A stretch of 64,000 nucleotides of DNA from Candidatus Marisimplicoccus framensis (lineage in GTDB: Bacteria; Bacteroidota; Bacteroidia; Flavobacteriales; Flavobacteriaceae). A program made the position numbers and the translations under genes. Every line of letters starts with the position of its first letter. Positions within the stretch are counted from its first letter, which is position 1. Positions 30,391 through 34,124 of this stretch are shown piece by piece. Location: assembly GCA_905182065.1 (NCBI GenBank), contig CAJIZN010000001.1, forward strand, positions 310,001-374,000, written 5' to 3'. Under the pieces are notes generated by a model that saw only the letters and a list, made by a program, of their open reading frames with translations, had not been told where the DNA came from and made no database searches.

Positions 30391-31476
30391 TTAAGAATTA
30401 AATGATTTTGATAATAAACTGTGAAAATGATGAACTCCTTTCTCTTTTGTAGGAGAGAATCTTCCAGCTTTATAAAATTTTGATCTTATTCCTTTCTGAA
30501 CACCTTCGACAACAAATTCATCCTCTCTTTCAACTTTATCAAGAGAAGCTCCAGCGCCTGTTTCTAGTTTAGACTCATCAAAAACATAGGTTAAAAACTG
30601 AACTTTTGTTTTTTGAATACTAATTGGTTTAACAACATTTATAGATAATCCCCAAGGGTAAAAGTTTAGCATTATATTTGGAAATAACCAGTAGTAATAT
30701 GCTGCAACATTTTTTCCAAAATCTACATGTGATTCTGGAATATCAAAGGTCTCTTCACCGTCTTTTGCATAACCTACTTGTAAATTATAATTTTCATAAA
30801 TTTCCGTATCATAATCACCATAATCTAAAATATTATTTAGATCATTATGTACAAAAGGAATGTGGAACCCCTCAAGATAATTATCACAATATAGTGCCCA
30901 GTGAGAATTAACTAGATAATCTTTACTCAAATCCCCTCTATAAGTTAACTTATCAAGAGGGATAAAGCTTACTCTTTCAGTAATTTCACTAAAAACTGTT
31001 TTTATTTCATAGCTAGGTTCAAGACCAACAAATAGAAACGGACCCATATTTCTTACTTGAAATTCTTTTAAATTATCACATTCTCTTGGGAAATTTTTTG
31101 CATCATCAAATTCTGGCATTGATTTAAATTTTCCATCCAAGTGAAATTTTCTTCCATGATACATGCATCTTAAATCATTAACCTTACATCTATCATTGAC
31201 AATTATGTTGGCTCGATGAGTACAAACATTAGTTAAACATTTATGTTCATCGTTTTCATCTTTTATTAGTATTAAAGGTTCATCAATATAGTCTTTGATA
31301 AAATCAAAAGGGTAAACATTTGTATTAACTGGTAATATCGATTCATGTTCAATTAACTGCCATGATCTGTAAAAAACTTTTTCTCGTAAATCATTAAAAT
31401 ACTTATTAGATTTATAGAACTCTGAAGGAAGAGTTTCAGCAATTTTTATATCCTTTTCAACTTTAAATTGTTTCAT
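30391..31476 (-). CDS. Rieske non-heme iron oxygenase, alpha-subunit-like
   Basis: A 361-residue protein with an N-terminal Rieske [2Fe-2S] site (CTHR and CMYHG, giving Cys, His, Cys, His) and a catalytic domain with the mononuclear iron motif NYLEGFHIPFVH. These are the hallmarks of ring-hydroxylating/choline-monooxygenase-type alpha subunits. It needs a reductase partner, which is not encoded nearby. The substrate cannot be inferred; quaternary amines or aromatics are typical. No signal peptide. First gene of a two-gene unit with the amidohydrolase, divergent from the Rieske lipoprotein operon. Confidence 0.87.
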   Translation of the reverse strand: MKQFKVEKDIKIAETLPSEFYKSNKYFNDLREKVFYRSWQLIEHESILPVNTNVYPFDFIKDYIDEPLILIKDENDEHKCLTNVCTHRANIIVNDRCKVNDLRCMYHGRKFHLDGKFKSMPEFDDAKNFPRECDNLKEFQVRNMGPFLFVGLEPSYEIKTVFSEITERVSFIPLDKLTYRGDLSKDYLVNSHWALYCDNYLEGFHIPFVHNDLNNILDYGDYDTEIYENYNLQVGYAKDGEETFDIPESHVDFGKNVAAYYYWLFPNIMLNFYPWGLSINVVKPISIQKTKVQFLTYVFDESKLETGAGASLDKVEREDEFVVEGVQKGIRSKFYKAGRFSPTKEKGVHHFHSLLSKSFNS

Positions 31477-31568
31477 GTCATTTAGTTAAAAGTATACTAA
31501 AGTCTAATTTGAAGTGTTAATTTACTAAATATACATACTAGATTTATTTGAAATTTAAAACAAATTTT

Positions 31569-32081
31569 ATGGAAAGAAGAAAATTTTTACAAAATACTTG
31601 TCCTACTGTAACATTTGCTTTTTTTGGCTTGTCTTTTGTTCAGGCATGTTCTAAATCAGATGATGACGAGTCTTCATATTCATCTGACTCAGGCAATAAC
31701 TCAAGCGATCCTTATGGTAATGACTCTCAATCGAATAACGGAATAACAGAAAGCGGCAACACTTTAACTCTAGATCTTACAAACTCAACTTTTAGTGGAG
31801 TAAGCAGTCCAGGTGACTTTATTAATTTAACGTCAGTAGGAGTATTGCTCTTAAAAACTTCAAATACAGAATATAGAGCATTTGATAATTGTTGTCCTCA
31901 TAGTGGGTCTAAAAATGCATGGTCTTATACAAACGATAAGTTTAGATGTGGTACACACGGAAATAGCTATGGTATTGATGGAAATAATATTGTAAATTGT
32001 GGTTCAGCATCAACTTCGGGTGATTTGAAAAAATATTCAACATCTCTGAATAATGATACTTTAACCATAACTACTAGCTAA
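31569..32081 (+). CDS. Rieske [2Fe-2S] lipoprotein, twin-arginine type
   Basis: The ATG at 31569 gives MERRKFLQ, a twin-arginine-like start; the TTG at 31548 is less likely. A hydrophobic stretch ends in VQAC, a lipobox. A Ser/Asp/Asn-rich linker of about 35 residues follows, then a compact Rieske domain with CCPHSGSKN and CGTHGNSYG (Cys-x-His and Cys-x-x-His). Twin-arginine export fits a protein folded with its cluster in the cytoplasm. It is the first gene of a tight operon with a four-His membrane protein and a YceI-like protein; an extracytoplasmic electron relay is a reasonable inference. Confidence 0.8.
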   Translation: MERRKFLQNTCPTVTFAFFGLSFVQACSKSDDDESSYSSDSGNNSSDPYGNDSQSNNGITESGNTLTLDLTNSTFSGVSSPGDFINLTSVGVLLLKTSNTEYRAFDNCCPHSGSKNAWSYTNDKFRCGTHGNSYGIDGNNIVNCGSASTSGDLKKYSTSLNNDTLTITTS

Positions 32082-32082
32082 A

Positions 32083-32718
32083 ATGTTTTTTTCAAAGGGA
32101 AGAGTGATATTGACAATTAGTCTAGCAATTTTTTTTAGTTGCTCTGCTTTAGGTCAGGACTTTTTTGAAGAGTTTGAAAATTTAATAGATGATGAAAAAA
32201 CTTCTTTACTTCCTGAGAAAATAATTTTTACTCAAAAAATATTTTGGGGAAAAAATGGTTTATTCCGAAAAACAGGCATATCAAAACTTAGTCTTGAGAA
32301 TAGAGAGAAAGAGCTAGTCTTGAGAGAAAAAATGCTAAAAGCTCATCAAATACTTGGTTATGTTACATTCGTAGGAATGATTGCTCAGGGAATTTTAGGG
32401 GGGAAGCTATATCAAGGTAAAAAAAAGGGAGATTACAGTCTTTACGAACCTCATAAAACTGTTGGAAAAATTGTTACAGCGACATATTTTACTGGTGCTG
32501 GACTCTCATTATTTTCTCCACCACCCCTAGTTTCAAGAAAAAGTGAAGGAATAAATAATATTAAAATACATAAAGTTCTTGCTAATATCCATGTTCCCGC
32601 TATGATTTTAACAAATGTACTATCTAAAGATGTAAACTCAGATGCTCATCGAGCAGCAGCTTATACAGCTTTTGCAAGTTATTCTTTTGCAATGCTTTCT
32701 ATAATAATAGACTTCTAA
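32083..32718 (+). CDS. Membrane protein with four His-bearing helices (cytochrome b561-like)
   Basis: A signal-like N-terminal segment is followed by a polar stretch to about residue 85. Four hydrophobic helices come next, each with one or more His: LKAHQILGYVTFVGM, YEPHKTVGKIVTATYF, IKIHKVLANIHVPAM and SDAHRAAAYTAFASYSF. Two pairs of axial His would suit one or two hemes b, as in cytochrome b561. The sequence does not carry an exact family motif, so this is inference. It begins 1 bp after the Rieske lipoprotein stop and overlaps the YceI-like gene (TAATG), so tight co-expression is expected. Confidence 0.6.
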   Translation: MFFSKGRVILTISLAIFFSCSALGQDFFEEFENLIDDEKTSLLPEKIIFTQKIFWGKNGLFRKTGISKLSLENREKELVLREKMLKAHQILGYVTFVGMIAQGILGGKLYQGKKKGDYSLYEPHKTVGKIVTATYFTGAGLSLFSPPPLVSRKSEGINNIKIHKVLANIHVPAMILTNVLSKDVNSDAHRAAAYTAFASYSFAMLSIIIDF

Positions 32719-33242
32719 TGAGATTATTAACTCTTATATTAATATTAACTCTCAATAATTTAACTTCCCAGGAACTTAAAAATATTGATACTACTAAATC
32801 TAGTATTAGTTATTCTGGAAATCATTTTTTACATAAATGGTCAGCAGAGAATAATAATTTATCTGGTCTAATTAAAACAGATAATGAAAAAATTGTAAAT
32901 ATTGGTATAGTTGCTAAAGTGGCAGATTTCAAAAGTGGAAACTCTAGTCTTGATAGTAATTCTTATAGAGTTCTTGAGGCTCTAAAATTTCCTAATATTA
33001 TTTTTAAATCAATAAGTATTAAAAGTCAAAATGGTCTATCAAACATCCAAGGCCTAATTGAATTTCACGGAATAGAGAAAAATATTGATGTGAATGTTGA
33101 GTTAACTAAAATGGATAATACAACTCAAATAAATGGGGAATTCACTCTTAATTTATCAGACTTTTCAATTGATCGCCCTTCTTTACTTTTAAGAAAAATT
33201 GACAACGAAATCAAAATAGAATTTATTCTATTTTTTGGTTAG
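32718..33242 (+). CDS. YceI-like family protein
   Basis: A 174-residue exported protein (hydrophobic start, mature end near LTSQ). It has YSGNHFLHKWSAENNNLSG, FKSGNSSLDSNSYRVLEALKFPNIIFKS and IQGLIEFHGIEKNIDV. This is the YceI lipocalin-like pattern: a phi-x-G-x-H start, a K-FP-I-F-S strand, and a G-L-x-x-HG-x-x-K turn. YceI proteins bind isoprenoids or lipid-like cofactors in the periplasm. Together with the two upstream genes it suggests a membrane redox module acting on a quinone-like substrate. Confidence 0.75.
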   Translation: MRLLTLILILTLNNLTSQELKNIDTTKSSISYSGNHFLHKWSAENNNLSGLIKTDNEKIVNIGIVAKVADFKSGNSSLDSNSYRVLEALKFPNIIFKSISIKSQNGLSNIQGLIEFHGIEKNIDVNVELTKMDNTTQINGEFTLNLSDFSIDRPSLLLRKIDNEIKIEFILFFG

Positions 33243-33243
33243 G

Positions 33244-34124
33244 TTAGTATTGATGAAATCCCTGAGAAACAAATTCTAGAACAGTTGGAAGAGATTCTCT
33301 CCAATATGTCCAAGTATGAGCACCATCTCTTACTCTATACTCATGATTTATCCCTTTATCACTAAAGTCAATATGGAGTAGACTACTGTCTTCGTATAAA
33401 TAATCATCATCTCCAGTATCAATAAACCATCTAACAGAATTTATTTCACTAATTGGAATTTTATTTATCAAAATTCTAGGATGATTTTATTTAACAAAGC
33501 TTCTAGATCTCCTTCGATATAATCAAAGTCATAATTGTAGTTATAATTATTTCTAAAAATCCATTCAATAAATTTATTTGGATTTGTAGGTCCTATTGCA
33601 GGACTTAAAGGAGCTGCAGATGAGAAAAGATCAGGTCTGTGTAATGCATATATTAATGTGCCTCCACCACCCATTGATAGTCCTGAGATAGCTCGAAATC
33701 TTTTATCAGATTTTATTCTATATTTTGATTCTACATGAGGCATTAATTCATTGAAAAAAAAGTCTTCGTAAAGCCAGTTTTCATTTGGGATATTGATGTA
33801 ACCTACATATCCAGTATTTGCATCAGGCATTACAATAATCATAGGAGTTGATTCTCCATTTAAAATAGAATTATCAGCAATTTTCTTTACCTCGCCAAAC
33901 TGGACCCATCCCGTATGATTATCACCAAGTCCATGGAGTAAATAAAGAACAGGGTAACTTCTAGACGAAGTATCATAATCAGGAGGTAGATATATAGAAT
34001 AGTTTCTTTCCATATCAAGAATTTCACTTTTCATTGTAAGATTATCAAAGACCTTACTTTGAGCAAAAGTAAAGTTTGAAGAAATTATAATTAATAATAA
34101 TGTAAGTCTATATATTTTTCTCAT
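33244..34124 (-). CDS. Carbohydrate-esterase-1-like alpha/beta hydrolase (frameshift near C-terminus)
   Basis: Signal peptide ending FTFAQ. Features are RNYSIYLPPDYDTSSRSYPVLYLLHG, GLSMGGGG (nucleophile Ser, oxyanion loop), and in the next frame IDTGDDDYLYED (acid) and VRDGAHTWTYW (catalytic His). The frame changes near 33470, so the acid and His lie in the second fragment (33244-33471). With one base corrected the enzyme is complete, about 290 residues, and resembles feruloyl esterase/esterase D-type enzymes. It is convergent with the YceI-like gene, 1 bp between stops. Probably removes acyl groups from sugars or small esters outside the cytoplasm. Confidence 0.75.

Follow-up and report, generated by a model that had tools for sequence, protein, structure and literature searches.

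A conserved Rieske, cytochrome b561-like and YceI lipocalin gene cassette, probably redox-active, in the envelope of Bacteroidota

A 64,000-nucleotide stretch of the Candidatus Marisimplicoccus framensis genome (hereafter, the window) carries three adjacent genes, for a Rieske [2Fe-2S] protein, a membrane protein (hereafter, Mem) and a YceI-family lipocalin. Comparison across Bacteroidota showed that these genes are conserved as a unit, with Mem and YceI as its invariant core. Genomes with Mem also tend to encode the Rieske protein, even where the two genes are unlinked, and the cassette YceI belongs to a distinct subgroup of the family with an HxxH motif. From its sequence, Mem is likely a divergent protein of the cytochrome b561 superfamily and a predicted heme binder. 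By analogy with a lipid-protecting system of Burkholderia, the cassette probably works in the envelope to transfer electrons to lipid-like molecules.

The Rieske gene (31569..32081, + strand, 170 aa) begins with an ATG and is separated by a 1-bp gap from the Mem gene (32083..32718, +, 211 aa), which in turn overlaps the YceI gene (32718..33242, +, 174 aa) by 1 bp, in agreement with the spacing of 1 bp and an overlap reported in the initial annotation. The Rieske reading frame could also begin further 5', with a TTG at 31548; the alignment of its 19 orthologues from the genus starts at the ATG. Upstream, a Rieske oxygenase alpha-subunit-like gene with Ring_hydroxyl_A and Rieske domains (30391..31476, −) is divergently encoded, and the 92-bp divergent intergenic region contains the element TAAATATACATACTAGATTT (31526..31545, +), read by eye. 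The motif TAGATTT, which we take to resemble the flavobacterial −7 box (TAnnTTTG), was found by eye 5' of the Rieske gene in 16 of the 19 Rieske-bearing loci of the genus, and is also kept in both Rieske-less genus loci (L012 and L019). The assembly of the window genome measures 1.23 Mb, with a completeness of 87.6%. On the other side of the cassette, a putative esterase gene (33247-34124, −) is broken into two reading frames near 33490, and intact relatives of about 290 aa are found in the same genus (L002 and L021); the split could be a true frameshift or an assembly error.

Mem was detected in 21 of 40 relatives, i.e., 21 of 25 same-genus genomes (window's included) and none of the 15 from other families. 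The four same-genus genomes without it are incomplete assemblies, like most other relatives. All 21 genus loci have YceI after Mem and the Rieske oxygenase gene, divergent, upstream, and 19 of them also have an intact Rieske lipoprotein gene. The other two retain remnants, a short open frame joining the N-terminal to the C-terminal end in L012 and a piece of the C-terminal end only in L019, next to intact Mem and YceI genes; as both are draft genomes, these remnants may reflect assembly error.

When the Mem sequence alone was searched against 296 genomes of the order, nothing matched outside the window's own genome, so profile searches were needed to see the family. The Mem profile had 36 matches in 397 Flavobacteriaceae genomes, or 33 after removal of three short fragments within long frames (G429, G435, and G333), and a broader profile had matches in 32 of 395 genomes sampled across the phylum. 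All 33 Mem-bearing Flavobacteriaceae genomes are small (about 1.2–2.2 Mb). Two genomes (G1013 and G909) contain two Mem gene copies each. A total of 80 loci were compared, comprising the 21 of the genus, a further three (L041-L043), L047-L073 from the Flavobacteriaceae search, and L075-L103 from the phylum search; L022-L040 and L044-L046 duplicate counted loci, and L074 is the window. Outside this set are the Flavobacteriaceae matches G382, G646 and G639, for which no loci were obtained, and, from the phylum search, genomes G755 and G775 and two second copies.

In all 80 Bacteroidota loci, Mem has a YceI gene directly after it on the same strand; the YceI genes of L056 and L091 were recovered stop-to-stop (start-codon choice had given 78 of 80). 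An adjacent same-strand Rieske gene is present in 52 loci and absent from 28, with 19 of 21 in the genus, none of three in L041-L043, 7 of 27 in L047-L073, and 26 of 29 in L075-L103; in L088-L091 it is located after YceI and not before Mem. This conservation of Mem-YceI and of the adjacent Rieske gene excludes a chance association, and the three genes, far from being seldom together in other genomes, belong together as had been claimed from the window. The Rieske gene appears dispensable locally, given the 28 loci without an adjacent copy and the remnants in two genus members.

Across 38 windows, each spanning at most 14 kb, no further gene was recurrent phylum-wide beside the cassette, based on mechanically called ORFs and BLAST clusters, in which an overlap filter dropped the Mem of L201 and the YceI of three windows. 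The Rieske oxygenase had no BLAST match in 38 windows of this size from other genera; it is thus a genus-level neighbour, and was dropped as a cassette component. Its best NCBIfam match, glycine betaine monooxygenase GbcA, is far below cut-off. A purM/prfA/pyrF-like context in seven Flavobacteriaceae loci looks, by eye, like housekeeping and was set aside. Genes for SOUL heme-binding proteins are found 5' of Mem at L041:1-513 and L049:2090-2659 (−) (Pfam, about 1e-35), and probably, by eye, in L052; these three loci have no adjacent Rieske gene. Gluconate 2-dehydrogenase subunit 3-like proteins are encoded before Mem in L048 and L054, the latter also with a GMC oxidoreductase.

The association of Rieske and Mem extends beyond gene adjacency. 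In the 397 Flavobacteriaceae genomes, 60 proteins matched the Rieske profile at E<=1e-5. At E<1e-15, a threshold chosen post hoc from a gap in the scores, the Rieske protein was found in 32 of 33 genomes with Mem and in 7 of 364 without (Fisher 3e-39, uncorrected for shared ancestry), and one protein (G587, E 5e-15) narrowly misses this threshold. With all 60 matches the counts are 32 of 33 and 28 of 364, respectively (Fisher 2e-29, again uncorrected for shared ancestry). Many Rieske genes of the Mem genomes sit on contigs other than that of Mem. Across 51 loci, the distance matrices were correlated for Rieske and Mem (r 0.90), Rieske and YceI (0.85), and Mem and YceI (0.82), without correction for shared ancestry; the correlations were weaker inside the genus (r 0.41–0.54, 19 loci).

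The Rieske protein of the window matches the Rieske domain over cut-off (PF00355, 8e-07; Pfam) and has the cluster motifs C109-x-H111 and C127-x-x-H130 (CPHSGS...CGTH). All 52 cassette Rieske proteins have the CxH...CxxH ligand motifs, which they share with Rieske proteins of the bc1/b6f type, to which the weak PetC-type NCBIfam matches of the window protein also refer. Unlike these, the cassette protein has a lipobox-type anchor, and the extra Cys pair of bc-type Rieske proteins is missing in 38 of 52, the window's among them, and present in 14. Rieske proteins without this pair tend toward lower potential. Both a Tat-type RRxFL motif (R3-R4 and F6-L7) and the lipobox-type Cys27 (codon 31647-31649) are invariant in the 19 genus orthologues, and Tat export and lipidation are predicted from these motifs. 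The lipid Cys is followed by an acidic stretch, CSKSDDDE, which resembles, as an inexact match, the Bacteroidetes surface-export signals QKDDE, SDDDD and SDDFE given in a published study (PMC5080379). From this resemblance, the Rieske lipoprotein is possibly located on the outer membrane or cell surface, away from Mem, a point against the electron exchange with Mem proposed below.

The YceI protein matches its family across the whole domain (PF04264, 1.1e-17, over cut-off; Pfam) and has a signal-peptide-like N-terminus; it is a predicted periplasmic protein. It differs from other YceI proteins by a near-N-terminal HxxH, H36-x-x-H39 in the window (codons 32823-32825 and 32832-32834). Both His columns are kept in 79 of 80 cassette YceI proteins, the exception being L058 with HPLK and not HPLH. 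YceI searches covering the window genome together with 16 more genomes that carry the cassette yielded 65 matches, of which 32 were read as loci. All eight cassette copies among these have HxxH, whereas none of the 24 other copies from the same genomes does, and the second YceI of the window genome is without it. By eye, the first His corresponds to one common in ordinary YceI proteins, and the second seems to be the addition.

Assigning Mem was less direct. The window protein matched no Pfam family over cut-off, PF01292 and PF03188 included, and gave weak matches to DUF420 and DUF2306. Among 38 diverse homologues, PF03188 (Eukaryotic cytochrome b561) matched 12, four of which passed its cut-off of 23 bits (L102, 29.7; L094, 26.7; L087, 25.4; L103, 24.9) with matches spanning helices 1 and 2. 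PF01292 (Prokaryotic cytochrome b561) matched 16 of the 38 weakly, none over cut-off among those read. The Pfam results of 35 members were read singly, including all 12 PF03188 matches, and L081, L083 and L084 are in the tally only. No flavobacterial Mem is among the 12, and the window protein is below the cut-offs, so its b561 link runs via distant homologues. As a control, the last 190 residues of 10 members were locally shuffled, after which none matched any Pfam family (8 of 10 match some family unshuffled), and none of 14 DUF420 proteins matched PF03188 or PF01292. These matches indicate that the Mem family resembles b561-type models at the sequence level.

Other comparisons of Mem were not discriminating. 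In profile-profile comparison, neither the E. coli proteins YceJ, YodB and CybB nor six b561-type proteins from the same genomes gave a significant match, and NCBIfam gave nothing recurrent. A sequence search of the PDB found no significant relative (best E 1.5 for A1, none for the 38-sequence A5, and best E 0.29 for L102), and Foldseek with the Mem model returned no match at E<=0.001. The model aligned to the b561 structure 4o7g with Z 8.8 and rmsd 3.5 over 121 residues, amid many unrelated helical bundles; a diheme design, NADPH oxidase, STEAP and b561 all fell at Z 8.8–11.9 amid such bundles. An identity as a DUF420 (CtaM-like) or DUF2306 protein was rejected, with single weak matches and non-significant profile-profile comparison, and is retained below only as a rival.

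The AlphaFold2 model of Mem, built from a broader alignment (39 sequences) and superseding an earlier one (pLDDT 66), has a mean pLDDT of 83 and a pTM of 0.75, with four core helices at residues 71-109, 118-143, 159-179, and 186-208. These contain, in order, H88, H124, H163 with H170, and H189, all five invariant in the 39 sequences, which are nearly all from Flavobacteriaceae. In the 38 more diverse sequences, H88, H163, H170 and H189 are again invariant, whereas seven (L082-L085, L088, L089, and L091) have Lys in place of H124 in helix 2. The arrangement of His on four helices, proposed initially from the window, thus holds for the window and its family but not for all homologues. With H124 replaced in these seven, all of which retain an adjacent Rieske gene, two bis-His hemes cannot be a general feature. 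The natural variants could help to distinguish one-heme and two-heme forms of Mem.

The N-terminus of Mem is signal-peptide-like, and we infer that it is cleaved. Cleavage would place the starts of helices 1 and 3 on the periplasmic side. A heme on that side would then be held by H88 together with either H163 or H170, and one on the cytoplasmic side by H124 and H189, the variable His pair. Mem shares with the cytochrome b561 superfamily the four core helices with conserved His, besides the four homologues over the PF03188 cut-off. It differs in that most members, including the window's, are under every cut-off, in the extra conserved His170 and a conserved N-terminal W-G-x-x-G-x-x-R segment, and in the replaced helix-2 His of the seven variants.

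A named relative in kind exists in Burkholderia cenocepacia, the LcoA-BcnA system, described as having the aldehyde reductase PsrA/YqhD as a partner. LcoA, a b561 protein, and BcnA, a YceI lipocalin, act in defence against lipid peroxyl radicals; according to the study of this system, mutants of either show raised lipid peroxidation, YceI proteins bind isoprenoids, and its authors propose that LcoA re-reduces the BcnA-bound quinone (PMC9113575). There, as in E. coli, where yceJ adjoins yceI, the b561-type gene is directly 5' of the YceI gene, which is the order of all 80 Mem-YceI loci. In contrast to LcoA-BcnA, the window Mem is under the PF01292 cut-off and has a signal-peptide-like N-terminus, the cassette adds a Rieske protein, and its YceI has HxxH. 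The initial statement that no named system of this composition is known therefore needs revision with respect to LcoA-BcnA (PMC9113575), from which the cassette differs by the Rieske protein and the HxxH lipocalin. The main text of that report has no mention of 'Rieske' or 'Bacteroid', and no description of a YceI, Rieske and b561 cassette was found in the open-licence literature, a scope that leaves aside subscription journals and preprints. By this comparison, the cassette appears LcoA-BcnA-like in composition, and what would be new is the added Rieske protein and the distinct HxxH lipocalin subgroup.

We tentatively read the cassette, with a confidence somewhat short of even, as a self-contained extracytoplasmic redox cassette of Bacteroidota that would maintain a YceI-bound quinone or lipid in the reduced state in the manner of LcoA-BcnA, with a Rieske relay. 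Mem would bind one or two b hemes, and electrons would pass between its periplasmic side (H88 plus either H163 or H170) and both the Rieske lipoprotein and an isoprenoid quinone or lipid in the YceI barrel. This electron transfer among the membrane, the Rieske protein and the YceI isoprenoid is proposed by analogy with LcoA-BcnA (PMC9113575). The likeliest job would be to maintain an antioxidant quinone (or a damaged lipid), bound to YceI in the periplasm, in its reduced form and thereby to quench lipid peroxyl radicals; the Rieske protein would contribute an extra one-electron relay. The menaquinol pool or a periplasmic donor is a candidate source of electrons, and flow could be in either direction. 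We count the SOUL heme-binding genes 5' of Mem in L041 and L049 in favour of a redox reading.

The core pair of bc complexes is a b-type membrane protein and a Rieske protein, and the cassette could, in line with this, be a minimal, stripped-down bc-like quinol oxidase branch, in which Mem takes electrons from menaquinol and passes them via the Rieske protein to a periplasmic acceptor, while YceI supplies or stores quinone. The bc-type Cys pair kept in 14 of 52 Rieske proteins fits such a branch; its loss from the other 38, the window's included, does not, and neither do the frequent Mem-YceI pairs without an adjacent Rieske gene (28 of 80) or the lack of any further recurrent gene phylum-wide across the 38 windows (at most 14 kb each), so we consider it unlikely. 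The isoprenoid binding of YceI proteins, as given in the Burkholderia study (PMC9113575), could also point to a biosynthetic or modification module in which a YceI-carried isoprenoid (carotenoid, quinone precursor, or lipid) is reduced or oxidised by Mem and the Rieske protein within a pathway. The divergent Rieske oxygenase would suit such a pathway, but it is a neighbour in the window's genus only and the phylum sample has no further consistent neighbour, leaving this module improbable in our estimate.

Two further readings concern the roles of individual proteins. Mem might be a non-heme four-helix scaffold or assembly factor, similar to CtaM/DUF420, with a role in the docking or maturation of the two exported proteins, Rieske and YceI, as its weak DUF420 and DUF2306 matches in the window and the replaced helix-2 His in 7 of 38 members would allow. 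However, the b561 models match more members and match them better (16 and 12, against one of 38 for DUF420), with four over cut-off, while 0 of 14 DUF420 proteins match the b561 models and the other four Mem His are invariant; we regard a scaffold role as improbable. The HxxH YceI might itself act as a redox or metal/heme-assisted carrier, ferrying a quinone through the periplasm between the inner-membrane b561-like protein and an outer-membrane Rieske lipoprotein, a scheme that we likewise hold to be improbable. If true, it would be a soluble-quinone trans-envelope electron route in Bacteroidota, and we know of no system like it.

YceI lipocalins are widespread, and the reading as an LcoA-BcnA-like redox cassette would offer one HxxH subgroup of them a concrete redox role with named partners. 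It also suggests that Bacteroidota, among them marine bacteria whose genomes measure only about 1.2 Mb, may have their own, differently constructed version of the Burkholderia-type envelope lipid defence.
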